17,218 bases of DNA, from contig CAMBHH010000062.1 of NCBI GenBank assembly GCA_945866505.1, positions 1-17,218 of the forward strand, given 5' to 3'. This document shows positions 2,513-16,600 of the stretch, piece after piece (the first letter of the stretch is position 1; every line of letters begins with the position of its first letter). Source of the stretch: Flavobacterium psychrophilum (GTDB taxonomy: Bacteria; Bacteroidota; Bacteroidia; Flavobacteriales; Flavobacteriaceae). The position numbers were made by a program, and so were the translations under genes. The notes under the pieces are model-generated. The model had not been told where the DNA came from. It saw nothing but the letters and a program-made list of their open reading frames with translations, and did not search any database.

Positions 2513-2932
2513 ATGGCAACTAATAGAACTTTTACAATGATTAAGCCCGATGCTGTCGAAAACGGACACATTGGAAATATTTTAGCAATGATAACCAATG
2601 CTGGTTTCAAAATCGTTTCATTGAAACTAACACAATTAACTGTAGCTGATGCTCAAGAATTTTATTCCGTTCACGCTGCAAGACCTTTCTATGGCGAATT
2701 AGTAGAATTTATGTCAAGCGGACCAATTGTGGCTGCCATTCTTGAAAAAGAAAATGCCGTTGCCGATTTCAGAACTTTGATTGGAGCAACAAATCCAGCC
2801 GATGCTGCTGAAGGAACCATCAGAAAAGCTTATGCCACTTCGATGGGGAAAAATGCAGTTCACGGTTCTGACAGTGATGAAAATGCAGCTATCGAAGGTG
2901 ATTTTCATTTTGCAGGAAGAGAGCAATTCTAG
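2513..2932 (+). CDS. ndk: Nucleoside diphosphate kinase
   Basis: A cytoplasmic enzyme that transfers the gamma phosphate from ATP to nucleoside diphosphates through a phosphohistidine, balancing the (d)NTP pools. The 139-residue length is normal. The N-terminus ([19 protein letters not shown]) carries the conserved lysine of the family in MIKPDA. The active-site signature NAVHGSDS is present, with the catalytic histidine at residue 117. It is monocistronic as far as can be seen: a -7 box stands upstream, a strong palindromic terminator follows at 2992-3027, and the next gene is convergent. A degenerate heptamer array begins on the first base of its stop codon. Confidence 0.97.
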
Positions 2933-2971
2933 ATTTATGATTTAAGAGTAACGATTTTTGAATTAAGATTT
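2930..2971. repeat. Degenerate heptamer array 1 (ndk 3' end)
   Basis: Six 7-base units in perfect register, loosely nnGATTT (TAGATTT, ATGATTT and AAGATTT among them; the third and fifth units are diverged). The first unit contains the ndk stop codon TAG. The array lies between the stop codon and the terminator hairpin. Confidence 0.55.
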
Positions 2972-2991
2972 AAAAAATCCCACAAAACAGA

Positions 2992-3027
2992 AAATCCGGT
3001 TTCAAAATTTTGAAACTGGATTTTTTT
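2992..3027. terminator. Rho-independent terminator between ndk and DUF721
   Basis: Inverted repeat with 16-nt arms at 2992-3007 and 3008-3023. The only imperfection is one G-T wobble, and the centre is AAAATTTT, so the effective loop is a few bases. A run of T follows on the plus strand (3021-3027) and a T-rich stretch follows on the minus strand. It probably ends both ndk and the convergent lipoprotein/DUF721 operon. Confidence 0.85.
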
Positions 3028-3042
3028 ATATGGTATTGAAAA

Positions 3043-3084
3043 AATCAGCAATCAAACATCGTTAATCAGCAATCTGAAATCATT
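3043..3084. repeat. Degenerate heptamer array 2 (DUF721 3' end)
   Basis: Six 7-base units in perfect register, consensus AATCnnn (AATCAGC twice, AATCAAA, AATCTGA, AATCATT; the third unit is CATCGTT). The last unit overlaps the first two bases of the minus-strand DUF721 stop codon at 3083-3085. The array therefore sits immediately 3' of that gene. Confidence 0.65.
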
Positions 3085-3379
3085 ACCTCAAAACAACATC
3101 CTTTATCACTTCGCGTCTCAATTCTTCATTGATCATAGCGACAATTTTCGATTTGCCGTGGGTTAATTCTTCTCTCAAAACTGCCGAAGAAAGTTCTACA
3201 TAAAGAGTACTGCCTTTCAAAACCACATTTTTAGTATAATGATTTACACCATTTCCCATCAGGTTTTTCCATGCTTCTCGCACATCGATTTGATCCATCC
3301 CGGGTTGCAATTTGTTGGCTTGGATAATGTGCTTCAAAACATCGCCAACCGTACTTTGATTATTTAGTCTTTTTGCCAT
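3083..3379 (-). CDS. DUF721 (DciA-like) protein
   Basis: A small 98-residue protein of the DUF721 family, which includes DciA, the loader of the replicative helicase DnaB in bacteria that lack DnaC. Whether the Bacteroidetes members load helicase is an inference from the family. The ATG at 3379-3377 (MAKRLNNQSTVGDVL) is preferred over the GTG directly upstream because it is a standard start. Recognisable parts are the GDVLKHII helix, the REAWKNLMG block (about residues 34-42) and a C-terminal strand-helix section (LYVELSSAVLREEL). It overlaps the upstream lipoprotein gene by about 20 nt, which suggests translational coupling. It is convergent with ndk. Confidence 0.85.
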   Translation of the reverse strand: MAKRLNNQSTVGDVLKHIIQANKLQPGMDQIDVREAWKNLMGNGVNHYTKNVVLKGSTLYVELSSAVLREELTHGKSKIVAMINEELRREVIKDVVLR

Positions 3380-3803
3380 CACCTAAAATGTTTATTGAGG
3401 TTGCTTTTTTGTAATGGTATTGCTTTCTTTCAGAGTTTTCAAAAACCATCTTTTCATTGGAAATCGAAATCAATTCCTCCGACCATTTGGCATATGAAGT
3501 AACATAATCAAAAAACACCTTATCGTTATCAATCCTTACTTTAAAACTTTCGTGAGTATCGTTTACAATGAAAGTACCATCTAATTGCGGCATGACTTTT
3601 TTTCGGAAACCACTATTATTTTTGTCCATTTCAAAATAATCATAACTTTCGTTTATGCTGTAATTTTTGTCTTCTCCGTCTTCAAAAACCACTTTCTCAA
3701 TTTCCCAATATCCATTGATTTTGGCAATATCCTCCGTTTTAATCCTTTGCTGACAAGAGACAAAAAGAAAGGAAACAAATAAAAATCCAACTATACTTCT
3801 CAT
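3360..3803 (-). CDS. Small putative lipoprotein of unknown function
   Basis: I do not recognise the family. From ATG at 3803-3801 the product is 147 residues, beginning with a hydrophobic signal peptide (MRSIVGFLFVSFLFVSC) whose FVSC lipobox predicts cleavage before Cys17 and lipid anchoring. The mature part is polar with alternating strands (YWEIEKVVFEDG, DGTFIVNDTHESFKVRI, DNDKVFFDYV), which resembles the lipocalin-like small lipoproteins common in Flavobacteria. The open frame extends upstream to an ATG at 3887, but that extension would translate the palindromic repeat element and would displace the signal peptide, so I reject it. Its 3' end overlaps DUF721, forming a two-gene operon. Confidence 0.75.
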   Translation of the reverse strand: MRSIVGFLFVSFLFVSCQQRIKTEDIAKINGYWEIEKVVFEDGEDKNYSINESYDYFEMDKNNSGFRKKVMPQLDGTFIVNDTHESFKVRIDNDKVFFDYVTSYAKWSEELISISNEKMVFENSERKQYHYKKATSINILGDGKKTK

Positions 3804-3817
3804 AAATTTTGTTTTTT

Positions 3818-3898
3818 GGGGAGCTACTTCCTGCTGTTCACTATATCTTTTGTGGCGAACACCGCCACAAAAGTATGCCGCTCCCATCAGGGCTAGGG
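3818..3898. repeat. Nested palindromic intergenic element (REP/MITE-like)
   Basis: The core is a perfect 11-bp inverted repeat, CTTTTGTGGCG at 3847-3857 and its complement at 3863-3873, with a 5-nt loop. It is nested within a second inverted pair, GGGAGC at 3819-3824 and GCTCCC at 3880-3885. The element is strikingly more GC-rich than its surroundings. It lies in the 5' leader of the lipoprotein operon. From memory, similar units (an AGCCC...GAGCGGCAT flank, a variable stem-loop, then a flank ending in GGA...GCTCC) recur in intergenic regions of Flavobacterium genomes. I could not check that here. Confidence 0.75.
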
Positions 3899-3910
3899 TT
3901 TTGCTATCAA

Positions 3911-3938
3911 AAGATATTTTCTATCTTCGACAAAGTTA
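3911..3938 (-). promoter_or_regulatory. Promoter and small inverted repeat for the lipoprotein/DUF721 operon
   Basis: On the minus strand TAACTTTG (3938-3931) is a perfect TAnnTTTG box. A TTG lies 14 bp further upstream (3955-3953), shorter than the usual 17-23. Just downstream, at the expected transcript start, is AAGATA-TTTTC-TATCTT (3911-3927), a perfect inverted repeat with 6-bp arms that could be an operator or a 5' hairpin. The leader would then contain the whole palindromic element at 3818-3898. Confidence 0.55.
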
Positions 3939-3996
3939 CTCTTATTAAATTCCAAAGAAAACAAAAAATAAAAAAAACTCATTAAACTATTTCTAC

Positions 3997-4004
3997 TATT
4001 TTTG
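3997..4004 (+). promoter_or_regulatory. -7 promoter box for serine hydrolase
   Basis: TATTTTTG matches TAnnTTTG and ends 29 nt before the ATG of the serine hydrolase. No TTG is found at the expected -33 distance. The divergent lipoprotein promoter lies about 60 bp away. Confidence 0.5.
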
Positions 4005-4033
4005 GTCTTATCTCCAATAAAAATCGTAACGCC

Positions 4034-5101
4034 ATGTCAAAAATTTATATCCTACTTAGTCTTTTTTTGTTAGCCAGCTGTAGTTCAAATAATCCGGATA
4101 TAAGTCCATCACCAGAAGAAGCAATGTATTTCCCACCCAAAACTGGCGAAGTTTGGGAAACAAAATCTATTGCTGATTTGGGTTGGAAACAAAATGCAGT
4201 GCAACCTCTTTTAGATTATTTAGCACTCAAAAACACAAAAGGGTTTATCATTTTGGTGAATGGAAGAATGGTTATGGAGAATTATTTCAACGGACATTCT
4301 GCTTCAACGGGATGGTATTGGGCAAGTGCTGGAAAAACATTAACAGCAACAATGACAGGAATTGCACAAGAAGAAGGATTAATCAACATCAACAATAAAG
4401 TGTCAGATTATATTGGAATTGGTTGGACAAGTATGCCAATTGCTAAAGAAAATCTAATAACCAACAAACATTTATTAACAATGACTTCTGGCATCGAAGA
4501 TATTGCCAATGGTGATGCTGTAGATCCAGCAAGTCTTACTTACAAAGGTGATGCAGGAACACGTTGGGCTTATCACAATGTTTATGTAAAATTGCAAGAT
4601 GTCATTGCCAAAGCTAGTGGACAAAACTGGTCAAATTATTTCAATACAAAACTGAAAGATAAAATCGGAATGACTGGAACTTGGATACAAATAGAGAACA
4701 ATAGCGTGTATTGGAGCACTTCTCGGAGTATGGCGCGTTTTGGACTATTAACCCTCAACAAAGGAAAATGGGAAAATACTACTATTTTGAATGAAGCCTA
4801 TTGGAATGAAGCCACGAATACTTCTCAAAACATCAATTTGGGATACGGTTATTTGTGGTGGCTGAATGGGAAAGCGAGTTATCATTTGCCGCAATCTCAA
4901 CTTCAATTTAAAGGAAGTTTAATTCCTACCGGTTCAAATGACATGTTTATGGCTTTGGGGAAAAATGACCAAAAAATATACGTGATTCCTAGCAAAAAAA
5001 TGGTTGTAATTCGAATGGGAGAAGCTGCCGACAATGTTAATCTAGCTTTATCTGATTTTGACAATGTGCTTTGGCAAAAAATAAATGCCTTGTATCAATA
5101 A
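4034..5101 (+). CDS. Lipid-anchored serine hydrolase, class C beta-lactamase family
   Basis: A penicillin-binding-protein/beta-lactamase-fold hydrolase of 355 residues, probably an esterase or peptidase rather than an antibiotic-resistance enzyme. The N-terminus is a lipoprotein signal (LLASC, lipid on Cys16), placing it in the periplasm or outer membrane. The nucleophile motif SxxK is S98-A-G-K101, the second motif YxN is Y180-H-N182, and the C-terminal block (about 306-332) with IYVIPSKKMVVIRMG matches the usual GQ...VPS..LVVVR region of the family. I do not see a canonical KTG/HTG triad. The gene ends only 6 bp from the stop of the convergent small membrane protein. The substrate is unknown. 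Confidence 0.88.
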   Translation: MSKIYILLSLFLLASCSSNNPDISPSPEEAMYFPPKTGEVWETKSIADLGWKQNAVQPLLDYLALKNTKGFIILVNGRMVMENYFNGHSASTGWYWASAGKTLTATMTGIAQEEGLININNKVSDYIGIGWTSMPIAKENLITNKHLLTMTSGIEDIANGDAVDPASLTYKGDAGTRWAYHNVYVKLQDVIAKASGQNWSNYFNTKLKDKIGMTGTWIQIENNSVYWSTSRSMARFGLLTLNKGKWENTTILNEAYWNEATNTSQNINLGYGYLWWLNGKASYHLPQSQLQFKGSLIPTGSNDMFMALGKNDQKIYVIPSKKMVVIRMGEAADNVNLALSDFDNVLWQKINALYQ

Positions 5102-5107
5102 AAAATA

Positions 5108-5278
5108 CTATTTTCTATTAGTTCCTTTAAAAAAACCAATAATAAAAAAAACAGCCCCTAAAAACAAACAAATGTAATAAAGAGGAATGTTTTGATCTCG
5201 CACAACATTGGATAATACAAATGCAATAATACTTGCAAAATAGAAATAAATCGGTTTAATGTTCTTATAAAAACTCAC
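5108..5278 (-). CDS. Small two-helix membrane protein downstream of ftsY
   Basis: A 56-residue product read from GTG at 5278-5276, the only plausible start in the frame. It begins 7 bp after the ftsY stop codon. There are two hydrophobic segments, about residues 9-26 (PIYFYFASIIAFVLSNVV) and 32-50 (PLYYICLFLGAVFFIIGFF). A short polar loop (RDQN) joins them and a basic tail (KGTNRK) follows, as expected of a small inner-membrane protein. Codon use and the tight spacing to ftsY support a real gene co-transcribed with it. No function is known to me. The non-ATG start and short length make it easy to overlook. Confidence 0.72.
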   Translation of the reverse strand: MSFYKNIKPIYFYFASIIAFVLSNVVRDQNIPLYYICLFLGAVFFIIGFFKGTNRK

Positions 5279-5285
5279 AAGACTA

Positions 5286-6239
5286 TTATTTAAAAAAACT
5301 ATCTACAAACTCATATTTATTGAAGACTTGTAAATCTTCAATTCCTTCTCCTACTCCAATATATTTCACTGGAATCTGGAATTGATCAGAAATCCCAATA
5401 ACCACTCCACCTTTGGCAGTTCCATCAAGTTTTGTGACTGCCAGTGATGTCACTTCGGTGGCAGCAGTAAATTGTTTAGCTTGTTCGAAAGCGTTTTGTC
5501 CTGTCGAACCATCAATAACCAGTAGGACATCATGTGGAGCATCGCCAACAACTTTTTGCATTACCCGTTTTACTTTGGTCAATTCGTTCATCAAATTGAT
5601 TTTATTATGCAAACGGCCTGCTGTATCAATAATAACAATATCGGCATTTTGAGCAACTGCTGATTGCAAAGTATCAAAAGCTACAGAAGCTGGATCGCTA
5701 CCCATATTTTGCCTTACTATGGGAACACCAACTCTATCCGCCCAAATTTGCAATTGATCGATTGCTGCGGCACGAAAAGTATCGGCTGCACCTAGAACTA
5801 CTTTATATCCACCTTTTTTGAATTGATAAGCGAGTTTACCAATGGTAGTTGTTTTTCCAACACCGTTTACACCAACAACCATCAAAACATAAGGTTTTGT
5901 AGTATTTGGAATTACAAATTCAGTAGCTTCTCCAGAATTCGTTTCCGAAAGCAAACCTGCAATTTCTTCCCGAAGAATTTGATTGAGTTCTCCAGTTCCA
6001 AGGAATTTATCCTCGGAAACACGCTTTTCTATTCGGGTGATAATTTTTAGCGTTGTATTTACTCCAACATCCGAAGAAACTAGTATTTCTTCGAGATTGT
6101 CTAAAACCTCATCATCAACTTTAGATTTTCCAGCAACGGCTTTGGTTAACTTGGAAAAAAAAGAAGTTTTTGATTTCTCTAATCCTTTGTCAAGTGACTC
6201 TTTTTTATCGGAAGAAAATAATTTTTTAAAAAAACTCAT
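5286..6239 (-). CDS. ftsY: Signal recognition particle receptor FtsY
   Basis: The SRP receptor GTPase that docks ribosome-SRP complexes at the inner membrane for co-translational insertion. The 317 residues comprise a short lysine-rich N-terminus, the N domain (about 25-105) and the G domain. G1 is GVNGVGKTTT (123-132), followed by the insertion-box sequence DTFRAAAIDQLQIWADR (153-169), DTAGR (205-209), TKLDGTAKGG (269-278) and the C-terminal GVGEGIEDLQVF. The long acidic A domain of the E. coli protein is absent, as in other Bacteroidetes. It follows the ribosomal-protein block on the same strand but is separated by a terminator and a heptamer repeat, so it probably has its own promoter. Confidence 0.97.
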   Translation of the reverse strand: MSFFKKLFSSDKKESLDKGLEKSKTSFFSKLTKAVAGKSKVDDEVLDNLEEILVSSDVGVNTTLKIITRIEKRVSEDKFLGTGELNQILREEIAGLLSETNSGEATEFVIPNTTKPYVLMVVGVNGVGKTTTIGKLAYQFKKGGYKVVLGAADTFRAAAIDQLQIWADRVGVPIVRQNMGSDPASVAFDTLQSAVAQNADIVIIDTAGRLHNKINLMNELTKVKRVMQKVVGDAPHDVLLVIDGSTGQNAFEQAKQFTAATEVTSLAVTKLDGTAKGGVVIGISDQFQIPVKYIGVGEGIEDLQVFNKYEFVDSFFK

Positions 6240-6250
6240 GATATTAAAAA

Positions 6251-6285
6251 AGTTAGAAGTTAGAAGTTAGAAGTTGGAAGTTAGG
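6251..6285. repeat. Heptamer array 3 (ftsY 5' leader)
   Basis: Five tandem 7-base units: AGTTAGA three times, then AGTTGGA and AGTTAGG. The last unit runs into a small palindrome TTAGG-AATG-CCTAA (6281-6294). The array is 11 bp upstream of the ftsY ATG. It is the purest array in the window, so it is either the youngest or the most recently homogenised. Confidence 0.9.
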
Positions 6286-6378
6286 AATGCCTAATTCTTA
6301 TTATCATTAATACAAAATCTATAATGTTTTAGTTTAAAAAATAATGATTTACAACTAACCATAAACGAACAAGATAGG

Positions 6379-6386
6379 CAAATATA
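6379..6386 (-). promoter_or_regulatory. Possible -7 box for ftsY
   Basis: On the minus strand TATATTTG is a perfect TAnnTTTG box, immediately after the terminator of the ribosomal-protein operon. It would give a leader of about 130 nt containing heptamer array 3. No -33 TTG is present, since that position falls within the terminator stem. Confidence 0.45.
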
Positions 6387-6394
6387 GAAAATAA

Positions 6395-6424
6395 AAAAGC
6401 TACTTCCGAATGAAAGTAGCTTTT
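6395..6424 (-). terminator. Rho-independent terminator of the rpmB-rpmG-DUF4295 operon
   Basis: Perfect 11-bp inverted repeat, AAAAGCTACTT at 6395-6405 and its complement at 6414-6424, with an 8-nt loop. On the minus strand it is followed by a run of T. It lies about 20 nt after the DUF4295 stop codon. Confidence 0.88.
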
Positions 6425-6444
6425 CTATTTAGTGCGATAGTTAA

Positions 6445-6597
6445 TTATTTCTTTTTCAAGAATTCATCAACTGCTTCAGGAGTCATTATAGATTCTACGA
6501 ATGTATATGCACCAGTTTTAGGAGATTTTACCATTTTGATGGCTTTTGATAATCTCTTAGAAGATGTCTGTAAGGATGCTACGGTTTTCTTTGCCAT
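6445..6597 (-). CDS. DUF4295 family protein
   Basis: A 50-residue basic protein (MAKKTVASLQTSSKRLSKAI..., ending in FLKKK) read from ATG at 6597. It matches the Bacteroidetes-specific DUF4295 family, which is nearly always encoded directly after rpmB and rpmG. Its size, strong positive charge and constant linkage to two large-subunit proteins suggest a ribosome-associated protein; that role is an inference. Spacing to rpmG is 75 bp and the operon terminator follows. Confidence 0.88.
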   Translation of the reverse strand: MAKKTVASLQTSSKRLSKAIKMVKSPKTGAYTFVESIMTPEAVDEFLKKK

Positions 6598-6672
6598 GAC
6601 TAATAATGTGTTTTTTGTATTTTAATAAAGTCTTCAAATGTTAGTTTTTGAAATAATCACTAAAATCTCTAA

Positions 6673-6861
6673 TTATTTAATTTCTTTGTGAACAGTTACT
6701 CGTTTCAAAATTGGATTAAATTTTTTAATCTCTAATCTGTCTGGAGTATTTTTTTTGTTCTTTGTTGTAATGTATCTTGAAGTTCCTGCAACACCAGTTG
6801 TTTTGTGTTCAGTACATTCTAAAATTACTTGGATTCTATTTCCTTTTGCTTTCTTTGCCAT
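6673..6861 (-). CDS. rpmG: 50S ribosomal protein L33
   Basis: A large-subunit ribosomal protein of 62 residues. The sequence ([20 protein letters not shown]..., [20 protein letters not shown]) matches L33. Only one cysteine remains where zinc-binding L33 proteins have paired CxxC motifs, so this is the zinc-independent form. It is the second gene of the rpmB-rpmG-DUF4295 operon, 23 bp after rpmB. Confidence 0.96.
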
Positions 6862-6884
6862 CTTGATGTATTTTTAGGAATGGA

Positions 6885-7121
6885 TTATTTAATAAATCCG
6901 CCTGCTTGTGCTTTTTTCAAAACTGCAGCGATTCCATTTTTATTAATTGTTTTTACCGTAGATGCAGCTACTCTTAGAGTAATCCATCTATCTTCTTCTG
7001 GAAGATAAAAACGCTTTTTAACTAAGTTAACAGAAAATTTTCTCTTAGTTTTATTCATAGCGTGAGAAACGTTATTTCCTACCATCGCTCTTTTACCTGT
7101 AAGGTCGCAAACTCTTGACAT
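6885..7121 (-). CDS. rpmB: 50S ribosomal protein L28
   Basis: A large-subunit ribosomal protein of 78 residues. The N-terminus ([27 protein letters not shown]) and the central block ([18 protein letters not shown]) are typical of Bacteroidetes L28. First gene of a three-gene operon with rpmG and DUF4295. A promoter candidate with both -33 and -7 elements lies 36-66 bp upstream. Confidence 0.97.
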
Positions 7122-7156
7122 TATCTTATCTTTTATCGTTATTCAAATCGAGGGTG

Positions 7157-7187
7157 CAAAGAAAAGAAAAATAAACGGATGAAGCAA
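7157..7187 (-). promoter_or_regulatory. Promoter candidate for rpmB operon
   Basis: On the minus strand TTG (7187-7185) is followed after 20 bp by TTTCTTTG (7164-7157), a seven-of-eight match to the -7 box TAnnTTTG. Both spacing and context fit the Bacteroidetes housekeeping promoter. It is in the 73-bp gap between cinA and rpmB, so the ribosomal genes can be expressed independently of cinA. Confidence 0.6.
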
Positions 7188-7194
7188 AAAATTA

Positions 7195-8445
7195 TTATAG
7201 ATTTTTTAAAATTTCTTTTCGCAACATTTCTAAACTCTTTACGACCGCTCTATCTATCACTTTTTCACGAGGTTGACCAAAATTAAACGCTTCGACTAGT
7301 ACTTGATTTGGGGTTGCCAATGCAATAAATATCGACCCAACCTCGGCGTCTGAATCGCCTTTCAATGGCCCAGCATTCCCAGTTGTGGCAATGGCATAGT
7401 CTGATTTCATTAACTTTTGGATGCTTATCGCCATTTGCTTAGCCACTTCTGCACTGACAACCGAATGTTCATTGATTAAATCTTCAGAAATTCCTAAAAT
7501 CGATATTTTTGTTATAGTTGCATAGGAAACAATACTGCCTTTAAAATAATTTGAAGCTCCTGCGACTGAGGTCAAAACCTGAGCAATTTTTCCTCCCGTA
7601 CAACTTTCGGCGGTAGAAATGGTTTTGTTTTGTTTGGTCAAAAGTCGGGCGACTACAATTTCAAGGCTTTCATCATCATCAAAACCTACAATACTGTCTC
7701 CAAGTATTTTAGATAACGAAATCACATTTTCGGAAATGGAATTCTGTAGAAATTCTTTATCCGTTCCTCGAGCTGAAAGGCGCAATCGTACTCGACCTGG
7801 ACTTGGTAAATAGGCTAATTTTATAAAATCGGGTAAATTATTTTCCCAATTCTCAATCGTTTCTGCCAATAAACTTTCACCGATTCCATAAGTTAAAACG
7901 GTTTTATGAATAATGAAAGGTCGTTCATACTCGGTAACAATTTTAGGTATAATTTCGTTTTCGACTATATATTTCATTTCAAATGGAACCCCTGGAAGCG
8001 AAATAAAGACGGTGTTTTCTTTTTTCATCCACATCCCTGGTGCTGTTCCCACTTGGTTGTGTAGTACCGTGCATTTTGACGGAACTAAGGCTTGATCTTT
8101 GTTTATTTGCGTTATCTGACGCTTATAAAACCCTTCGATTAATTGCGTAACGTGCTTGAGAACGTCTTGGTTTACAACCAGTTCATCATCAAAATAATCG
8201 CAGAAAGTTTTCTTGGTAATATCGTCTTTTGTAGGGCCAAGTCCACCAGTAATGATAACCAAGTCTACTTTGTTTTGAAATTTTTCAAAGGTACTTAGAA
8301 TGTGTTGCTTGTTGTCACTAATGGAAATCATTTCGTGTATTTCGACACCAATTCTGTCTAATGATTTGGCAATAAATCCCGAATTTGAATCAACAATTTG
8401 CCCAATTAAAATTTCGTCGCCAATAGTAATTATGGATGCTTTCAT
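7195..8445 (-). CDS. cinA: CinA: competence/damage-inducible protein A, NMN amidohydrolase
   Basis: A cytoplasmic two-domain protein of 416 residues, full length for the family. The N-terminal MoCF-like domain (COG1058, about 1-170) contains the [10 protein letters not shown] motif at 66-75 and SLPGVPFEM near 149-157; in studied homologues it acts as an ADP-ribose pyrophosphatase. The C-terminal PncC domain (about 260-416) has the STAESCTGG motif at 277-285 and TTGNAGP near 355, and deamidates nicotinamide mononucleotide for NAD salvage. The isoleucine usual in TGIAGP is Asn here. It is the last gene of the exonuclease-FAH-HPt-CinA cluster and ends 73 bp before rpmB. Confidence 0.95.
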
Positions 8446-8449
8446 TTGA

Positions 8450-8498
8450 GGTTGGAAGGGGGAAGATAGAAGTGGGACGTTGGAAACTGCAAACTGAA
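8450..8498. repeat. Degenerate heptamer array 4 (HPt 3' end)
   Basis: Seven 7-base units fill exactly 49 bp in perfect register (GGTTGGA, AGATAGA, AGTGGGA, CGTTGGA and AACTGCA among them; most end in GA). The array nearly fills the gap between the HPt stop codon (8502) and the cinA start (8445). It is more diverged than array 3, but its units look related to AGTTAGA and AGTTGGA. Confidence 0.7.
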
Positions 8499-8501
8499 AA
8501 A

Positions 8502-8846
8502 TTATAAATCGAAATCTTTTCTTAATTCCTTAATTGCATCTTTTACTTGCTGCTTGACGCTCTTGAATGTTTCTTTTATTTCCTTCTTTTCGCCTTCGAT
8601 TTTTGTCCACGCTTCAATTTGAAGAATTTCTTCGAAAGCTACTTTTAAACCCAATAAATCTAAGGAAGGTTTTACTTTGTGAGCGTAAGAATAAGCGTGT
8701 TTATGATCCTTTTTTTTAATTCCTTCTTTGATTTCTGCGATATCATCGGGAATTTCTGTAACAAATAACGTTACTATTTGCAGGACAAATTCTGGATCGT
8801 TATCTGAAAGTGCGTACACTTTTGCTAGGTTATAATGTAGTGCCAT
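8502..8846 (-). CDS. HPt (histidine phosphotransfer) domain protein
   Basis: A stand-alone 114-residue phosphotransfer protein that would relay a phosphoryl group between a hybrid histidine kinase and a response regulator. The HPt signature [14 protein letters not shown] contains the phosphoacceptor His56 and the following Lys and Pro-Ser. The rest is helical, with a charged C-terminus. No kinase or regulator gene is in the window, so it is an orphan relay component. Its ATG follows the FAH stop codon with no gap (TAAATG), indicating coupled translation. Its link to FAH and CinA is one of co-expression; the biological reason is not evident. Confidence 0.87.
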
Positions 8847-9458
8847 TTATTTTATTTGTATGCTAAATAATTTATTTCCTTCTAAAAAGCCTTCTAAAAT
8901 GTCTTCAGACTTTACAACCGCAACGCCTTCTGGTGTTCCTGTAAAGATAATATCTCCAATTTTTAACGTGAAATATTGTGAAACATAAGAAATTAGCTCA
9001 TCAATATTCCATAACATAAAATTGGCACTACCTTTTTGAACCGTTTTGCTGTTGTTCGTCAATTCAAAAGTAATATATTCTAATGAATTAAATTGACTTT
9101 TTGGCAAAAAATCGCCTATCACTGCAGAACCATCAAACGATTTCGCTTTTTCCCAAGGCAATCCTTTGGATTTTAATTCATTCTGCAAATCTCGAGCAGT
9201 AAAATCTATACCCACACTAATTTCGTCATAATATTTATGAGCAAACTTGGTATCGATATATTTTCCCACTTTGTTTATCTTGACAATAAGTTCTATTTCG
9301 TGATGAATATCATTCGAGAATTCTGGAATCACAAAAGGATGTTGTTTCAACAAAACCGCAGAATCGGGTTTCATAAAAATTACCGGTTCCGATGGTCTTT
9401 CGTTTTTTAATTCCTCGATATGCTTGGCATAATTCCTGCCGATGCAGATTATCTTCAT
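8847..9458 (-). CDS. Fumarylacetoacetate hydrolase family protein (acylpyruvase-like)
   Basis: A 203-residue FAH-fold enzyme of the small FAHD1/YcgM type, which hydrolyse acylpyruvates or decarboxylate oxaloacetate in the cytoplasm. It starts with IICIGRNYAKHIEEL, has the metal-binding IHHEIEL block (Glu54 and Glu56) and GIDFTARDLQ (Asp85), then KSFDGSAVIGDFLP (107-120) and the FTGTPEGV motif near the C-terminus. I chose the ATG at 9458. A GTG at 9506 is in frame, but it would translate a tandem repeat (Pro/Lys/Thr/Asn-rich) before the conserved start. It abuts the HPt gene downstream and lies 69 bp after the exonuclease. Confidence 0.9.
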   Translation of the reverse strand: MKIICIGRNYAKHIEELKNERPSEPVIFMKPDSAVLLKQHPFVIPEFSNDIHHEIELIVKINKVGKYIDTKFAHKYYDEISVGIDFTARDLQNELKSKGLPWEKAKSFDGSAVIGDFLPKSQFNSLEYITFELTNNSKTVQKGSANFMLWNIDELISYVSQYFTLKIGDIIFTGTPEGVAVVKSEDILEGFLEGNKLFSIQIK

Positions 9459-9463
9459 AATTG

Positions 9464-9531
9464 GGGTTTTGGGTCTTGGGTTCTGGGTTTTGGGAATTCC
9501 TTTCACCCAATACCTAAAACCTAATGCCTAT
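9464..9531. repeat. Heptamer array 5: opposed G-rich and C-rich halves, hairpin and G-quadruplex motif
   Basis: On the plus strand five GGG runs recur every 7 bases (9464-9494, unit GGGTTTT and variants). A second set of four heptamers follows at 9504-9531 in the complementary sense (CACCCAA, TACCTAA, AACCTAA, TGCCTAT). The halves can pair: 9476-9494 with 9506-9524 gives a 19-bp stem with three mismatches and an 11-nt loop. The second half covers the exonuclease stop codon, and the first ends 5 nt before the FAH start. The G-rich strand meets the G3-N4 pattern for a quadruplex. Confidence 0.85.
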
Positions 9532-10298
9532 TTTGTGTTTAATTTCCTCAATTTTATGGCCGTCAAAACTTTCTTCGTATATAAAGGAAAATCAGCATTT
9601 TGAATCCAACTGAAATAGCCAGGTTCGTTTTCTAATACAACATCAACTTTGACTCCTTTGTGTTTTCCAAAAGTAAAAATTTCATTGTTATCCTTATCAA
9701 AAGCAATCATTCCAGCAAAATCGGCTATTTTTTTTCTAGTGGTAAATTCTGAAAGTGATTTTATATCGTTTTGCAAATCGGGATAACGCTCTAATTGGGC
9801 TTTCATAATTTCGTAAGTTGCCATCGTATCGGCTTCGGCAGAATGGGCATTTTCGAGACTTTGACCACAATAAAATTTCAAAGCTGCGCTCAATGTTCGT
9901 TCTTCTTTTTTGTGAAAAATGGTTTGAACATCTACAGAAACACGGTTTTTCATGTCGAAATCTACTCCAGCGCGAAGCAATTCTTCTGCCAATAATGGAA
10001 TATCAAAACGATCAGAATTGTATCCAGCCAAATCAGAATCTTTAATCATATTGTAAACTTGCGAGGCCAATTCCTTGAATGTAGGTTCGTTAGCTACTTT
10101 TTCGTCTGTAATTCCGTGAACTAACGTGGTCTGATATGGAATTGGTATAGTGGGATTAACCAACCAAGTTTTACTTTCTTTATTTCCGTTTGGAAAAACT
10201 TTGAAGATTGCAATTTCAACAATTCGATCTTTGGCAACATCAATTCCGGTAGTTTCTAGGTCGAAAAAGCAAATTGGTTTATTAAGTTTGAGCTCCAT
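9528..10298 (-). CDS. DnaQ-like 3'-5' exonuclease (exodeoxyribonuclease X type)
   Basis: A DEDDh-family exonuclease of 256 residues. Exo I is FFDLETTG (Asp13, Glu15), Exo II is GYNSDRFDIPLL (Asp99) and Exo III is HSAEAD (His152, Asp157), so all the catalytic residues are present. The C-terminal extension (FGKHKGVKVDVVLENEPGYFSWI, in part) is the small domain seen at the end of exodeoxyribonuclease X-type proteins. It probably acts in DNA repair or DNA end trimming; it is not the polymerase III epsilon subunit judging by the extra C-terminal domain. It has its own -7 box and an upstream palindrome, and it begins a cluster with FAH, HPt and cinA. Confidence 0.93.
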   Translation of the reverse strand: MELKLNKPICFFDLETTGIDVAKDRIVEIAIFKVFPNGNKESKTWLVNPTIPIPYQTTLVHGITDEKVANEPTFKELASQVYNMIKDSDLAGYNSDRFDIPLLAEELLRAGVDFDMKNRVSVDVQTIFHKKEERTLSAALKFYCGQSLENAHSAEADTMATYEIMKAQLERYPDLQNDIKSLSEFTTRKKIADFAGMIAFDKDNNEIFTFGKHKGVKVDVVLENEPGYFSWIQNADFPLYTKKVLTAIKLRKLNTK

Positions 10299-10316
10299 TT
10301 TTTTATTTTAGAATGA

Positions 10317-10345
10317 CAAATATATCTTTTTGAACATATAGTTCA
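10317..10345 (-). promoter_or_regulatory. Promoter and palindromic operator candidate for the exonuclease cluster
   Basis: On the minus strand TATATTTG (10324-10317) is a perfect TAnnTTTG box 19 nt upstream of the exonuclease ATG. No TTG is found at -33. Within the spacer lies the perfect palindrome TGAACATATAGTTCA (10331-10345; 5-bp arms, 5-nt centre), well placed for a repressor that blocks polymerase. Confidence 0.6.
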
Positions 10346-10379
10346 TCGATTATTTTAAAAAGTTTTAGACAAAAATCAA

Positions 10380-10410
10380 AAACCCGACAAGTTAGAAAAC
10401 AGTCGGGTTT
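10380..10410 (-). terminator. Rho-independent terminator of the E2 gene
   Basis: Perfect 9-bp GC-rich stem, AAACCCGAC at 10380-10388 and GTCGGGTTT at 10402-10410, with a 13-nt loop. On the minus strand it is followed by T-rich sequence. It lies about 20 nt after the E2 stop codon. Confidence 0.88.
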
Positions 10411-10430
10411 GTCTTCGATTTTATAATTCA

Positions 10431-11738
10431 TTAAAAATTTCTATTCACATCAAATGCTTCTAGATATTCTGCAACGCGTTTTACAAAACTTCCTCCTAAA
10501 GCACCATCAACAACACGATGGTCGTAGCTGTGCGAAAGGAACATTTTTTGGCGAATGCCAATAAAATCTCCTTCGGGAGTTTCGATTACGGCTGGCACTT
10601 TTCTGATTGCTCCAAGTGCCAAAATCCCAACTTGGGGCTGATTGATAATTGGTGTTCCAAAAACACTACCAAAAGTCCCCACATTCGTGACTGTATATGT
10701 TCCACCTGTGGTATCGTCTGGTTTTAGTTTTCCTGCTTTGGCTCTTCCTCCTAAATCATTTACGGCTTTTGCCATGCCTACTAAATTGAGTTGGTCGGCA
10801 TTTTTAATAACGGGAACAATTAAATTTCCGTTGGGCAACGAAGCTGCCATTCCAAGGTTGATATTTTTTCTTTTGATGATCGTTTCACCATCAACAGAAA
10901 TATTCATCATCGGGAAATCTTTCAAAGCTTTAGCAACAGCCTCCATAAAAATTGGAGTGTACGTTAGCTTCTCTCCTTCTCTATTTTCGAAAGCAGTTTT
11001 TACCTTATCTCTCCATTTTACAATATTGGTCACATCGACTTCAATGAACGACTGAACGTGCGCCGAAGTATGAACCGAAGCGATCATATAGCCCGAAATC
11101 AACTTGCGCATTCTATCCATTTCGATGATTTCATCACCACCGTTTAAAGATGTGGTTATGGGTTGTGGGTGATGAGTTATGGGTTGCGGCGGTGCAACTG
11201 ATTTTGGTGCTTCAACTACAATTGGTGCAACAACACCTCTAGTTTTTATATAATTTAAAACATCTTCTTTGGTAACTCTTCCGTCTTTTCCTGAACCAAG
11301 AATATTCTCTAATTCTTCAAGAGAAATTCCTTCTTCTTTAGCAATATTTTTTACTAAAGGCGAATAGAATTTTTCAGAATCTGAAAAGTTTGTTGGAGTG
11401 GTTACGGTATCTTTGGCAACTTCAATTGTCTTTTCAATCACAGCAACTTCATCAGGAACAACAACTTCTTGTTTAGAAATAGCTATAACTGAATCAACTT
11501 CGGTTTCGATAATTGCAATGGTTTGACCCACTTGAACCAAATCATCTTTACCAAACAATTGTTCTACTAAAATCCCCGAAACTTCGCTGGGCAGTTCACT
11601 ATCGACTTTGTCAGTGGCAACTTCAAGCACAGCTTCATCGGCTTCGATATTTTCACCCACTTGTTTCAACCAATTTGTAATAGTTGCTTCTGCTACGCTT
11701 TCTCCCATTTTTGGAAGTTTCAATTCAAATCTTGCCAT
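10431..11738 (-). CDS. 2-oxoacid dehydrogenase complex E2 (dihydrolipoamide acyltransferase), probably branched-chain type
   Basis: The lipoylated acyltransferase core of a 2-oxoacid dehydrogenase complex, 435 residues, cytoplasmic. Domains in order: one lipoyl domain (1-80, DEAVLEVATDKVDSELPSE with the lipoyl lysine at 44); a linker; a peripheral-subunit-binding domain (about 125-165, SPLVKNIAKEEGISLEEL); a second linker; and the catalytic domain (about 205-435) with DHRVVDGALGG (His407, Asp411). A single lipoyl domain and the GTFGSVFGTPIINQPQVGIL block resemble branched-chain E2 enzymes, but substrate assignment is uncertain because E1 and E3 genes are not in the window. The second linker is encoded by a heptamer repeat. 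It is flanked by a promoter box and a terminator, so it is probably transcribed alone. Confidence 0.93.
   Translation of the reverse strand: MARFELKLPKMGESVAEATITNWLKQVGENIEADEAVLEVATDKVDSELPSEVSGILVEQLFGKDDLVQVGQTIAIIETEVDSVIAISKQEVVVPDEVAVIEKTIEVAKDTVTTPTNFSDSEKFYSPLVKNIAKEEGISLEELENILGSGKDGRVTKEDVLNYIKTRGVVAPIVVEAPKSVAPPQPITHHPQPITTSLNGGDEIIEMDRMRKLISGYMIASVHTSAHVQSFIEVDVTNIVKWRDKVKTAFENREGEKLTYTPIFMEAVAKALKDFPMMNISVDGETIIKRKNINLGMAASLPNGNLIVPVIKNADQLNLVGMAKAVNDLGGRAKAGKLKPDDTTGGTYTVTNVGTFGSVFGTPIINQPQVGILALGAIRKVPAVIETPEGDFIGIRQKMFLSHSYDHRVVDGALGGSFVKRVAEYLEAFDVNRNF
11152..11186. repeat. Heptamer array 6, inside the E2 linker
   Basis: Five 7-base units in register on the plus strand (GTGGTTA, TGGGTTG, TGGGTGA, TGAGTTA, TGGGTTG). 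The coding strand reads them as Pro-Gln-Pro-Ile-Thr-type repeats (PQPITHH then PQPITTS), because three heptamers equal seven codons. The array falls in the flexible linker between the subunit-binding and catalytic domains. Its units closely resemble those of array 5 (GGGTTTT). Confidence 0.8.
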
Positions 11739-11775
11739 AGTATTAACCTAAAAGGTGATTTTGATTATATGAATG

Positions 11776-11783
11776 CAAAATTA
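11776..11783 (-). promoter_or_regulatory. -7 promoter box for E2
   Basis: On the minus strand TAATTTTG matches TAnnTTTG and ends 37 nt before the E2 ATG. I do not see a TTG at the expected -33 distance. Confidence 0.5.
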
Positions 11784-11826
11784 GTGATTATTTTTAGTTT
11801 TAGGCTGATAATTGATGGTTTTTGGA

Positions 11827-11868
11827 CAAATCAAAAATCAGAAATCTGATGCCCAAATTCTTAAATCT
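11827..11868. repeat. Degenerate heptamer array 7 (glycosyltransferase 3' end)
   Basis: Six 7-base units in register (CAAATCA, AAAATCA, GAAATCT, then one diverged unit, then AAATTCT and TAAATCT). The array spans the glycosyltransferase stop codon (11863-11861 on the minus strand) and extends into the intergenic gap before E2. Its AATCA/AATCT core resembles array 2. Confidence 0.6.
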
Positions 11869-13664: not shown

Positions 13665-16600
13665 ATGAAAAAATTTTTTTTACTCTTTTTCTTAATGACT
13701 ATTTCATTAGGACAATCGCAAACGCTAAGATTAGGTTTTGAATCTGGCGAGTCTGGATATGCATTAGACAACTTTGGTGGTTTTGCAATTCAACCAGTAG
13801 AAGCTGGAACCGGATCGAATACCTCAATGGTATTACCTATCATTGCTAATCCTACAGGAGAACCTTGGCAAGGTACAAATTTTGTTTTAACAACACCTGT
13901 GGAGTTAATAGCAAGTAAAACAATGACTATTGATGTTCTTTCTTCTGTACCTGTTACTTTTTTAATGAAAGTGAATACTGGAACAGGTCCTGAAGCTGCA
14001 GCTCAAGCATCTCACAATGGTGATGGAACTTGGCAGACAATTTCTTTCACCTTCAATACTTCATTGGATGGAAAGGCTGCTACGGCGAATGGTGTATACA
14101 ATAATATGGTTATACACCCATTCTTCCCTTTTAATGGATCGGCAAGCGCAAGAACATTTTATATTGATAATTTAAGAGGTCCTGGTGTAACTCCTCCACC
14201 AAGTAGCTGTACTAATGGTATACAAGATGGAACTGAAACAGGTATAGATTGTGGTGGTACATGTTCTCCATGTCCTCCTCCAGCTCCATCTGTAGCTGCA
14301 GCCAATCCTACAAATGCTTCTGCAGATGTTATTTCTGTTTTTAGTGGTGCTTATACTGATGTGGCTGGAACTAATTTTTATCCAAATTGGGGTCAAAATA
14401 CACAGTATGCGCAATATAGCGCAGCTGGAAATGCTACTTTACGTTATTCAAATTTAAACTATCAGGGTATTACTTTTGCTTCTCCAGTGGATGGGGCTGC
14501 TATGACAACGCTTCACTTTGATATTTGGACAGCTGATTGTACCTCATTTCAAATGTTTGTGCTTGACGGATCTAATCCTGAAGAGCAAGTTACTGTAACC
14601 CCTACTTTAAGTGGTTGGAACAGTTATGACATTCCATTATCATCTTATCCAAACTTAACTAAATCTAACCTTAGAGAATTTAAGATTGTCGGAAATGGTA
14701 CTGTTTATTTAGATAATATTTATTTCTGGAAAGTTCCTGCAGGTACCAACACATATTATGCTGATACCGATGGTGATGGATATGGTGCAGGTGCTGCAAC
14801 TTTATCTACTGCCGTAACACCTCCAACAGGGTTTTCTGTAAACAACACAGATTGTAATAATAACAATGCAGCTGTTTATCCTGGAGCAACTGAAATTGCA
14901 GATGGTTTAGACAATGACTGCGACGGCAAAGTAGATGAAGGATTTCCTCCTAGTACAGCTGCGCCAACCCCTCCAGCAAGAAACGCTTGGGATGTAGTAT
15001 CTATATTTAGTGGGGCTTATTCTAATGTAGCCTTAGACGAACTTCCTACATCATGGTCAGGATTAAATTCTCCTTTTTCAGTTGAAACAATTGGTGGAAA
15101 TCCAACTTGGAAATTTGATGGTGAATTCTTAGGTATGGTTACTAATTATGCAAATGGTATTGATTTAACTCAAATGACTACTATGCACATTGATTATTGG
15201 ACTCCTGATGCCAAAATTATGATTGCCAAAATTGTGAACACTATTGATGGTGTATCAGAAGGACTTACTATTGTTCAAGATCCAGTTGTAACTGGTACAT
15301 GGAGAAGTGTCGATATTCCAATGTCTGCATTTGGAGGATCAGTAAATAAATCTAAAATTACACAGATTTTATTAGACCCACAATTAGGTGGTTCTACTGT
15401 ATATGTTGACAACTTTTATTTCTACAGACCTGAAACTGGTGCTCCTTCTGCAACTTTAGGTGCTTTTACAGTTCCTGCTAAAGTAATTGGTGATGCTAGT
15501 TTTAGCTTAAGCGCTCCATCTACTAACAGTGCTGGTGCATTTACTTACACTAGTAGTAATGAAGCAGTTGCTACAATTTCTGGTACAACTGTAACTATTG
15601 TAGGTGCTGGTTCAACTATTATTACAGTGACACAAGCTGCTGCAGGAGGTTTTGGTGTTGCAAGCACTACTGCTACCTTAGTAGTTTCATTGGGTACTGC
15701 TGCTACAACACCTACTATTCCAGGTGATAGAGTATTGTCAATTTTTAGTGGTGCTGACGGTTATGCTAATGTTGCAGGTACTCAATTTTATCCTAATTGG
15801 GGACAATCTACTCAATATGCTTTAGAAAGTATTGCTGGAAACCCAACTCTTAGATATTCTAATCTTAACTATCAAGGAATTCAATTGGGTTCAGTAATTG
15901 ATATATCTTCTTATGATTCTATTCATTTAGACATCTATGGTGCTGGAACTTCATCAGTAAATTTTAGAGTGATAAACCAAGTAGGCGGCGCTGGAAGTTC
16001 AGATGTTGCAAGAGAAGCAAATACAACAATTACACTTAATCCAGGTTGGAATTCAGTTGTTATTCCTGTATCATCACTTACAACAATTAATCCAGATTTT
16101 GAATTAAATAGAGTAGGACAATTAATGTTTGTAGGTTCAGGAACCATTTATGTAGATAACATCTTTTTCTCAAAAGCCGTACCAACAGCAGTTGCTCCAA
16201 CTGTAAGTGATATTTCTTTTTGTAAAGGTTTGGCATCTGCTTTAACTGCAACACCATCAGGCACTAACCCGTTAAGATGGTTTACAGTTGCAACAGGTGG
16301 TACAGCTTCATTAGTTGCTCCAATTCCAACAGCTACTAAAACTTATTATGTAGCGCAAGTAATGTCGAATGGTACAATTAGTCCAAGAGCAGCATTAGTT
16401 GCAACGATTGTTCCACTTCCAACAGAAGTTATTGGAACAATTACAAGTAACACAGCGGGAACAACAGCAGGTACATTTGCAGCAGCCACTTTAGCGGTTG
16501 GTCCATTTGTAGGAACTGCAACAACAGTTTCTTATAGAGTACCAGCATTTGTAGGAGCTAATTCTTACTTATGGACTGTACCAGCAGGTGTTAGAATTGT

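Follow-up and report, generated by a model that had tools for sequence, protein, structure and literature searches.

In Flavobacterium, short arrays of degenerate seven- and eight-base units hug gene ends, stops and starts alike. At one gap, between an exonuclease gene and a gene of the FAA-hydrolase family (exo|FAH), they form a hairpin that is kept across most sampled species while the family of units that builds it changes, with no sign that flanking DNA was exchanged. We studied these arrays starting from a contig of 17,218 nucleotides (nt) deposited as Flavobacterium psychrophilum (CAMBHH010000062.1; "the window" hereafter means this whole stretch), in which an earlier look at the sequence, the original prediction, had described heptanucleotide arrays abutting stop codons. 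Several families that are unrelated in sequence coexist in the genus. We give about an even chance to the reading that the arrays are single or paired arms belonging to dispersed families of intergenic repeats, copied between sites and kept where a hairpin is useful.

Judged from its sequence, the window is Flavobacterium chromosome; the FtsY proteins closest to its own are those of F. soyangense (96%) and of the metagenome-assembled genomes (MAGs) UBA5153 (95%) and BC.034 (95%). Genome-scale tests were made on relatives of the window, not on its own genome. The main sample comprised 81 loci around ftsY (the window and 80 relatives; 1.59 Mb), with one genome per species and all from one neighbourhood, and the related sequences in it are not independent. 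Genes were called as the longest open reading frames (ORFs) of at least 90 amino acids, with approximate start codons, and arrays were counted by a score threshold, so that weak arrays escape the count. One locus (L036) lies on a contig whose title reads Bifidobacterium breve MAG; its FtsY shares 90% identity with that of the window, and the contig probably comes from a mislabelled or contaminated bin.

Across these 81 loci we counted 110, 66 and 32 intergenic segments of period 7 with three thresholds, where a single dinucleotide shuffle had 18, 0 and 0; for period 8 the same thresholds gave 78, 33 and 13, where the shuffle had 22, 2 and 0. Periods 4 to 6 and 9 to 12 stayed near the shuffled level, 14 and 16 were raised as multiples, and 13 and 15 were moderately raised (37 versus 13 and 13 versus 1 for period 13; 28 versus 11 and 5 versus 0 for period 15). 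When each intergenic array was given its single best period, 116 had period 7 and 41 period 8, with 5 to 11 each for 5, 6, 9, 10, 11 and 12. Searches of 400 kb each in two genomes found 25 segments of period 7 and 2 of period 8 in F. laiguense and 15 and 5 in F. petrolei, against 0.3 in shuffled sequence for either period, and 200 kb of E. coli K-12 contained none. The original prediction had set period 7 above both 6 and 8; it does strongly exceed 6, but period 8 is itself in excess (33 versus 2), which had been missed.

By genus, in a grouping that left out 15 of the 80 relatives' loci, Flavobacterium had 67 arrays in 33 of 44 loci and Kordia 12 arrays in all 3. Formosa was poorer (1 array in 2 loci), as were eight single loci of other genera (3 arrays, all in one locus), and no arrays were found in the 3, 3 and 2 loci of Winogradskyella, Psychroserpens and Myroides. 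Twenty further genomes of the phylum (349 kb) yielded 16 segments of period 7 and 3 of period 8, against 0 for each in shuffled sequence, built of quite different units; arrays occurred in 4 of these 20 sequences, a sample that included three contigs of only 2-4 kb. Period 7 in itself has a broader distribution in the phylum than the CTNAG family described below.

The arrays are placed at the edges of gaps. Ninety-eight of 186 had a gene end no more than 5 nt away, whereas random placement of these arrays in their own gaps (1000 placements) gave 40.1 ± 4.5; together with the excess of period 7 (66 versus 0 shuffled), this bears out the original proposal of a recurrent, non-chance process at gene ends. 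Its claim of enrichment at stop codons also stands in part: 70 of the 186 lay within 5 nt of one (25.7 ± 4.0 expected, maximum 38 in 1000 placements), but the tie includes starts and is not to stops alone. Polarity was scored on the 151 arrays that lay within 40 nt of a gene end and had unequal G and C. At stops, 75 of 93 had the G-richer strand running away from the gene and into the gap, and at starts 50 of 58 did; F. petrolei alone gave 6 of 11 at stops. Because the 30-nt ends of array-free gaps show the same skew at 856 of 1216 starts (460 of 1043 stops), part of the start-side bias is general. Tandem gaps held arrays in 102 of 1083 instances, convergent gaps in 40 of 289 and divergent gaps in 10 of 342.

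The unit families in Flavobacterium are GATTnnn (with one fixed GATTAAC), CAGTnn(n), CTNAGnnn, and GTTTAAA-, GGGTTTT- and AAGTTAG-like units. Arm units are degenerate, of 7 nt and sometimes 8, with a conserved core of 4-5 nt and 2-3 variable bases. The 116 period-7 arrays had many kinds of consensus unit (62), the commonest being AGATTTT with 16 (among the 60 of 62 kinds listed). Core and spacer conservation compared array by array was suggestive only (26 of 121 arrays at p<0.05, median p 0.21); in orthologous CTNAG hairpins, cores are kept while spacers drift.

Unit order within the GATT family departs from random. Of the 42 distinct GATT arrays, 38 had five units or more; these carried GATTAAC once (23) or lacked it (15), and never had it twice; random dealing of the units would give 4.4 arrays with two copies, and gave none in 0.05% of deals. 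The unit next after GATTAAC was GATTTTT in 11 cases (4.6 expected), and the unit before it was GATTGAA in 4 (0.7 expected). The GATT-family core pattern GATTNNNGATTAACGATTNNNGATT matched in 10 of 12 genomes, with 35 (F. laiguense), 18, 15 and 11 matches in the four richest and none for the reversed pattern. Because GATTAAC is fixed and never occurs twice per array, and because core matches outnumber reversed ones 35 to 0 in one genome, the arrays are not only a product of local slippage. A simpler pattern, GATTT x3 (9 of 10 genomes), was not used, since its reversed control is itself a repeat-like pattern and also finds matches (as many as 27 + 38 in a single genome). GATTTTA also occurs in perfect runs of 9-10 units, and slippage probably extends some arrays. 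For the octamers, CTNAG x3 matched 151 and 99 times in two sister genomes, with a reversed control of 0. Phylum-wide, 9 of 61 genomes matched, with high counts (151, 203, 41) in 3, and the reversed control matched in 9 of 61, once 18-fold; a phylum-wide spread of the CTNAG family was rejected.

The genes around the window arrays are ndk, DciA/DUF721, ftsY, cinA, and those for an Hpt-domain protein (HPt), the FAA-hydrolase-family protein (FAH), the exonuclease (exo), a 2-oxoacid dehydrogenase acyltransferase (E2) and a family-2 glycosyltransferase (GT); the nine array-neighbour genes scanned (Pfam for NDK) belong to housekeeping-type or general families. Among Flavobacterium-titled loci, arrays occupied exo|FAH in 28 of 43, DUF721|ndk in 13 of 27, E2|exo in 5 of 37, GT|E2 in 2 of 37 and HPt|cinA in 1 of 40. 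The difference between exo|FAH and HPt|cinA gives a Fisher p of 3e-10 with kinship ignored, and the HPt|cinA gap is the larger (median 198 versus 87 nt) and also tandem. A comparison of orthologous gaps had been suggested as a check on whether whole arrays come and go; their presence does vary, and whole families are also swapped in place.

This exchange is clearest at exo|FAH, where we found GGGTTTT units (the window and L001), CAGT heptamers, CTNAG octamers, GGAAGTC and GTTTGTA. On a tree of the flanking coding DNA (51 distinct rows), CTNAG octamers (31 rows) and CAGT heptamers (20 rows) required 16 parsimony changes, and supported branches force 11 or more of these. With the labels shuffled the number is 16.1, and therefore the family at this gap carries no kinship signal. 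A larger tree of 72 rows, in which some genomes appear twice, has a clade of 54 that includes 51 rows of these two families; the remainder are two rows of a single genome (L033/L126) with a CTNAG-like hairpin missed by the rule, and one short gap.

Over 20 kb, F. sp. YO12 (L031) and F. plurextorum (L033) share 94.3% identity, and yet their exo|FAH gap is wholly replaced from stop to start. The flanks are 93-97% identical in 8 of 8 tested windows, up to 700 nt on each side, and are mutually nearest among the loci compared, so that a large imported tract is not the cause of the swap; import of the gap by flanking homologous recombination was accordingly rejected. The pair L065 and L079 (91%) shows a CTNAG/CAGT exchange at exo|FAH too. 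An apparent CTNAG remnant lies in the loop of the CAGT hairpins of L011, L031 and L127, and L016 has a similar stretch inverted (by eye). Over 61 syntenic gaps of one sister pair, G011 and G012, median identity was 0.71 in the 10 with arrays and 0.93 in the 51 others, and identity fell below 0.6 in 4 of 10 and 7 of 51, respectively.

Further sites gave related observations. A second swapped gap in the pair G011 and G012 (G011:C6 68902-68972, in L158) has a CTNAG hairpin in one genome and a CACGAATT-type plus CTTTGNGNC-type repeat in the other. Between L065 (14191-14315) and its sister L079, a (TCTAAAA)n array of one species is partly replaced in the other by a short palindrome, CCCGATAGCTATCGGG, and the same palindrome occurs in the exo|FAH gap of L067. 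Beside ndk, L031 13267-13374 and L033 share an inverted repeat pair (ACCATATAAGTAATGTAA...) with a differing interior, which looks like the remnant of an insertion element.

Part of the arrays pair with a second arm in the same gap. In F. laiguense and F. petrolei together, 56 of 459 gaps carried arrays. Comparing the rest of each of these gaps with its array, the reverse complement beat the direct orientation in 38 and did worse in 14, and it beat all 20 shuffles in 26. Ranked among the right-hand arms of the same genomes' other array gaps, the gap's own partner came within the top 10% in 21 of 60 gaps (binomial p 1.6e-7) and best of all in 10. Clear hairpins perhaps make up a third to half of array gaps, the others being single arms. 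Tandem gaps folded with a median z of -3.0 where they held arrays (n=82) versus -1.8 where they did not (n=164), and in DUF721|ndk gaps the arms flank a terminator-like hairpin common to sister species.

The two arms of CTNAG hairpins evolve together, by pairing selection or by palindrome-templated correction. Among the CTNAGnnn hairpins at exo|FAH in 27 species, left spacer 2 matched right spacer 1 in 11 of 27 versus 3.5 expected (p 0.0005), and left spacer 3 matched right spacer 2 in 9 of 23 versus 1.6 expected (p 0.001); the other seven registers were at or near expectation (best p 0.027). The matching triplets were of five kinds in each of the two registers, and therefore reflect repeated paired change, even though the permutation is blind to kinship. 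At this gap the sense RNA was more stable than the antisense in 25 of 29 octamer hairpins and 14 of 18 CAGT hairpins, and G-U outnumbered A-C mismatches at CTNAG hairpins by 56 to 25.

The window itself contains the following features (scores are for period 7).

2932-2973, + strand: GATT-family arm that starts within the ndk stop codon, its G-type strand reading into the gap; score 10.4 (ndk ORF 2513-2932, Pfam NDK)
2990-3027, no strand: terminator-like hairpin in the gap where ndk and DciA/DUF721 converge, with an arm on each side (by eye)
3043-3084, - strand: second GATT-family arm, with GATTAAC, directly 3' of the DciA/DUF721 stop (ORF end 3083) and able to pair with 2932-2973
6250-6284, + strand: AAGTTAG heptamers forming a single arm 10 nt away from the start codon of ftsY, with the G-type strand reading into the gap; period-7 segment 6250-6282, score 24.2
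8445-8509, + strand: arm of degenerate heptamers that takes up the gap from the cinA start to the HPt stop (ORF end 8502); score 17.0
9461-9494, + strand: GGGTTTT-type arm beside the FAH start; score 16.9
9505-9530, - strand: partner of the preceding arm, of ACCTAAT type as written on the + strand, in contact with the exonuclease stop (9528-9530); score 10.9
11154-11185, + strand: heptamer array inside the variable linker of the E2 (dihydrolipoamide acyltransferase) gene; score 12.8
11828-11868, - strand: GATT-type arm at the glycosyltransferase stop (11861); over-threshold segment 11828-11849, score 11.0

Two gaps are two-armed, 2930-3085 and 9459-9530. The first folds with a z of -6.65, to which the terminator-like hairpin contributes, and a hairpin similar to that one was seen in most of the relatives' orthologous gaps inspected. 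Both of its arms follow the GATT-family unit order, one imperfectly (GAGTAAC). The arm at 3043-3084 belongs to the family by this order (GATTTCA GATTGCT GATTAAC GATGTTT GATTGCT); it falls below the period-7 threshold and has only period 14 (score 8.5). The second gap folds with a z of -3.14, and the FAH start is taken there as the ATG at 9458, 2 nt from the arm, where the ORF list has a GTG at 9506. The fold showed no partner arm for 6250-6284 and no hairpin at 8445-8509, and no partner arm was seen for 11828-11868. Tandem Repeats Finder, run on the window, reported neither 3043-3084 nor 8450-8498. None of 38 Flavobacterium-titled E2 orthologs checked had a period-7/8 array (threshold 9) in that gene.

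Most of the original list of at least seven arrays survives: all but one are above threshold, 3043-3084 is recognised only by its unit order, and what had been taken as one array at 9464-9531 is two inverted arms. The 7-base period described as strict was too strong a term, several arrays being degenerate. The five contacts with stop codons were correctly located, at ndk (2932), DUF721 (3083), HPt (8502), the exonuclease (9528) and the glycosyltransferase (11861). Two weaker period-7 segments, 3958-3975 and 2379-2402, lie beyond that list. Elsewhere in the window, a repeat of period 6/12/18 unrelated to the heptamers occupies 929-996, within ORF 790-2415. An Rfam Flavo-1 RNA, a flavobacterial structured RNA, lies at 3823-3898 on the - strand (67 bits), overlapping the 5' end of ORF 3360-3887. 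A large ORF of at least 1184 amino acids begins at 13665 (13665-17216, + strand) and runs past the window end.

For the copying route and the function of the arrays, we infer the following. Repeat families would spread as DNA copies, by some process, and settle in gaps, and gene ends would bound the settled repeats. Whole-unit slippage and palindrome-templated copying would then lengthen the arms and keep them complementary. Arrays would persist at certain gaps where an intercistronic or 3'-end hairpin is useful, any family being able to serve. The likeliest use of such a hairpin would be to protect or insulate the upstream message, as repetitive extragenic palindromic (REP) hairpins do in E. 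coli.

In favour of this reading are the excess of periods 7 and 8 between genes, the placement and polarity at gene ends, the reverse-complement partners and covarying spacers, the GATTAAC order, the genome-wide matches of the GATT and CTNAG patterns, the exchange at exo|FAH and the gap-specific occupancy. Several results weigh against it. Over all array gaps, the score between arms of the same gap was not above that between gaps (median 9.0, 11.5 and 7.0 versus mean 8.8, 9.4 and 8.9; Wilcoxon p 0.11, 0.07 and 0.46), and many arrays are single-armed, in the window those at 6250, 8445 and 11828. In the 82 tandem array gaps the sense RNA was more stable in 37 and less stable in 44, and the excess of G-U over A-C mismatches across tandem array gaps (94 versus 68) was no greater than in array-free controls (109 versus 78). 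Convergent gaps, where sense is meaningless, gave p 0.048, a gauge of the noise in the sense-RNA test. General selection on the sense RNA is unsupported by these stability and G-U data and was dropped. No copying enzyme was found: in the 20 examined of 35 Y1-transposase matches (11 genomes), no core-family array lay within 1.4 kb, with one such array at 1.4 kb (L188) and other period-7/8 segments at 0.5-1.3 kb in three loci. Copying also leaves the unit length of 7 or 8 without explanation, and the permutations used for placement, for GATTAAC and for CTNAG covariation ignore kinship.

Local slippage would dispense with copying altogether: the polymerase would slip by 7 or 8 nt on the spot, at gene ends that tolerate insertion, drift would follow, and AT-rich DNA would limit the kinds of core. 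Perfect GATTTTA runs of 9-10 units, the many different units in one genome and the lower conservation of array gaps between sisters (0.71, n=10, versus 0.93, n=51) all suit it. We nonetheless consider it unlikely as the whole account. Simple slippage, which the original prediction had offered among its candidates, fails to explain the single GATTAAC with its preferred neighbours, the 99-151 genomic matches of one degenerate octamer core against a reversed control of 0, reverse-complement arms whose spacers covary in one register, and the replacement in situ of a whole hairpin by an unrelated one, and the GATTNNNGATTAACGATTNNNGATT and GATTAAC results point to a unit order common to unlinked sites; it probably extends some arrays. 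Less probable again is that the arrays are regulatory sites, the core of each unit binding a subunit of a nucleic-acid-binding protein (cold-shock or S1-type, a kind proposed for the TAACTGA repeats) that covers 7-8 nt of DNA or RNA. The constancy of cores beside drifting spacers in orthologous CTNAG hairpins, and the gap-specific occupancy, agree with binding, as does the heptamer binding by CspB cited in MacGregor 2015 (PMC4679880). A core that changes wholly at one site between sister species speaks against it, as do the many families per genome and the lack of a general sense-strand signature.

We regard as quite improbable a model of end addition, in which a telomerase-like reverse transcriptase or terminal synthesis adds arms to the 3' ends on either side of an opened gap, which is then rejoined. 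It predicts G-strand-inward arrays of one family at both gap edges around any middle, and it would account for the polarity at both kinds of gene end, for replacement without flank exchange, and for arms around a retained centre (the terminator-like hairpin of DUF721|ndk; by eye, the apparent CTNAG remnant in the CAGT loops of L011, L031 and L127). A bacterial reverse transcriptase that makes tandem-repeat DNA exists (DRT10; PMC12632851). Degenerate spacers and a single fixed GATTAAC are unlike copies of one short template, however; a single break does not predict a retained centre, and some gaps have different families at their two edges (L005, L025; by eye). A broader proposal is doubtful and is put forward tentatively: that Bacteroidota have a process which places 7/8-mer arms of a single family, G strand inward, at the two edges of a gap, around any middle, and can overwrite a hairpin of another family while leaving the flanking genes untouched. 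If true, the wide excess of seven-base repeats would be due to a dedicated DNA-synthesis or copying system. A negligible claim is left to chance low complexity or an artefact of scanning: some window arrays (3043-3084, 2932-2973) are weak taken alone, and the shuffled controls, the reversed-pattern controls of 0 and the absence of segments from 200 kb of E. coli rule it out.

The copied-repeat reading can be set beside several known systems. We found no account of these Flavobacterium families in open-licence papers on heptamers, palindromes or repeats of Flavobacterium and Bacteroidetes. Mrazek reportedly described, in 2007, a heptamer excess among long simple sequence repeats. A survey with SPADE (PMC6344855) gives heptamers as the commonest intergenic tandem repeat across a wide range of prokaryotes, with the cause unexplained. 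Such surveys treat tandem repeats as such, whereas the features of interest in Flavobacterium are degenerate arms, polarity, pairing and turnover. MacGregor 2015 (PMC4679880) described TAACTGA repeats in marine Beggiatoaceae, cyanobacteria and a few Bacteroidetes, intergenic and mostly near gene ends, and other heptamers in gaps of Gramella, A. sublithincola and Elizabethkingia, with sister species whose gaps are repeat-free. The TAACTGA repeats have one exact unit in one orientation, mostly just before starts, and neither hairpin pairing nor family exchange is reported in the accessible text; the Flavobacterium arrays have many kinds of unit and use both gene ends.

REP sequences and the related BIMEs (bacterial interspersed mosaic elements; PMC3733652) are dispersed extragenic palindromes beside gene ends and resemble the Flavobacterium arms, which likewise occur as many dispersed palindromic copies per genome. 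Two Flavobacterium species appear in a table row of PMC12306157 as genomes searched for REPs, so the families may overlap. The Flavobacterium arms differ in being periodic and long. REP tags at the feet of 62 arms were rare (GTAG 3, 1.5 shuffled; CGTC 1, 0.2 shuffled; GGAG 2, 0.7 shuffled), and no REP-associated tyrosine transposase (RAYT, of the Y1 type) was flanked by core-family arrays within 1.4 kb in the 20 loci examined; membership in the REP/RAYT system is thus unsupported. The telomerase-like reverse transcriptase DRT10 (PMC12632851) makes short tandem-repeat DNA from a template, with repeats of 9 nt in one system; it serves as an analogy only, and integration is not described in the part of the paper available.

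The original prediction had pointed to the heptameric short tandem repeats (STRR elements) of cyanobacteria, a loose precedent; the GGGAATC heptamers of Xanthomonas are closer. Rehm 2015 (PMC4692102) described intergenic GGGAATC / GGGGA(T/C)T heptamers of Xanthomonas and Nostoc with conserved and degenerate positions, whose G-rich strand is the sense one downstream of stops and the antisense one upstream of starts. They are rare between divergent genes (7-8%), and inverted pairs number 70 and 75 in two Xanthomonas genomes. The Flavobacterium arrays share the intergenic placement near gene ends, the polarity of the G strand and, in part of the gaps, inverted pairs within one gap. Unlike that one G-quadruplex-forming unit, Flavobacterium has many families, octamers as well as heptamers, an ordered unit within arms and replacement of families at the same site; no arm of 62 had four GGG runs, and a G-quadruplex reading was rejected. 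Intergenic heptamers, their polarity and their inverted pairing are thus already in print for Xanthomonas and Nostoc, and what is new is the degenerate, multi-family, interchangeable form. Degenerate arms of this kind may escape searches for exact repeats. The swaps at exo|FAH, such as that between the 94% identical F. sp. YO12 and F. plurextorum, are dated natural experiments on mechanism and on the equivalence of families, and family exchange gives a starting point for explaining why seven-base repeats are so abundant in bacteria.

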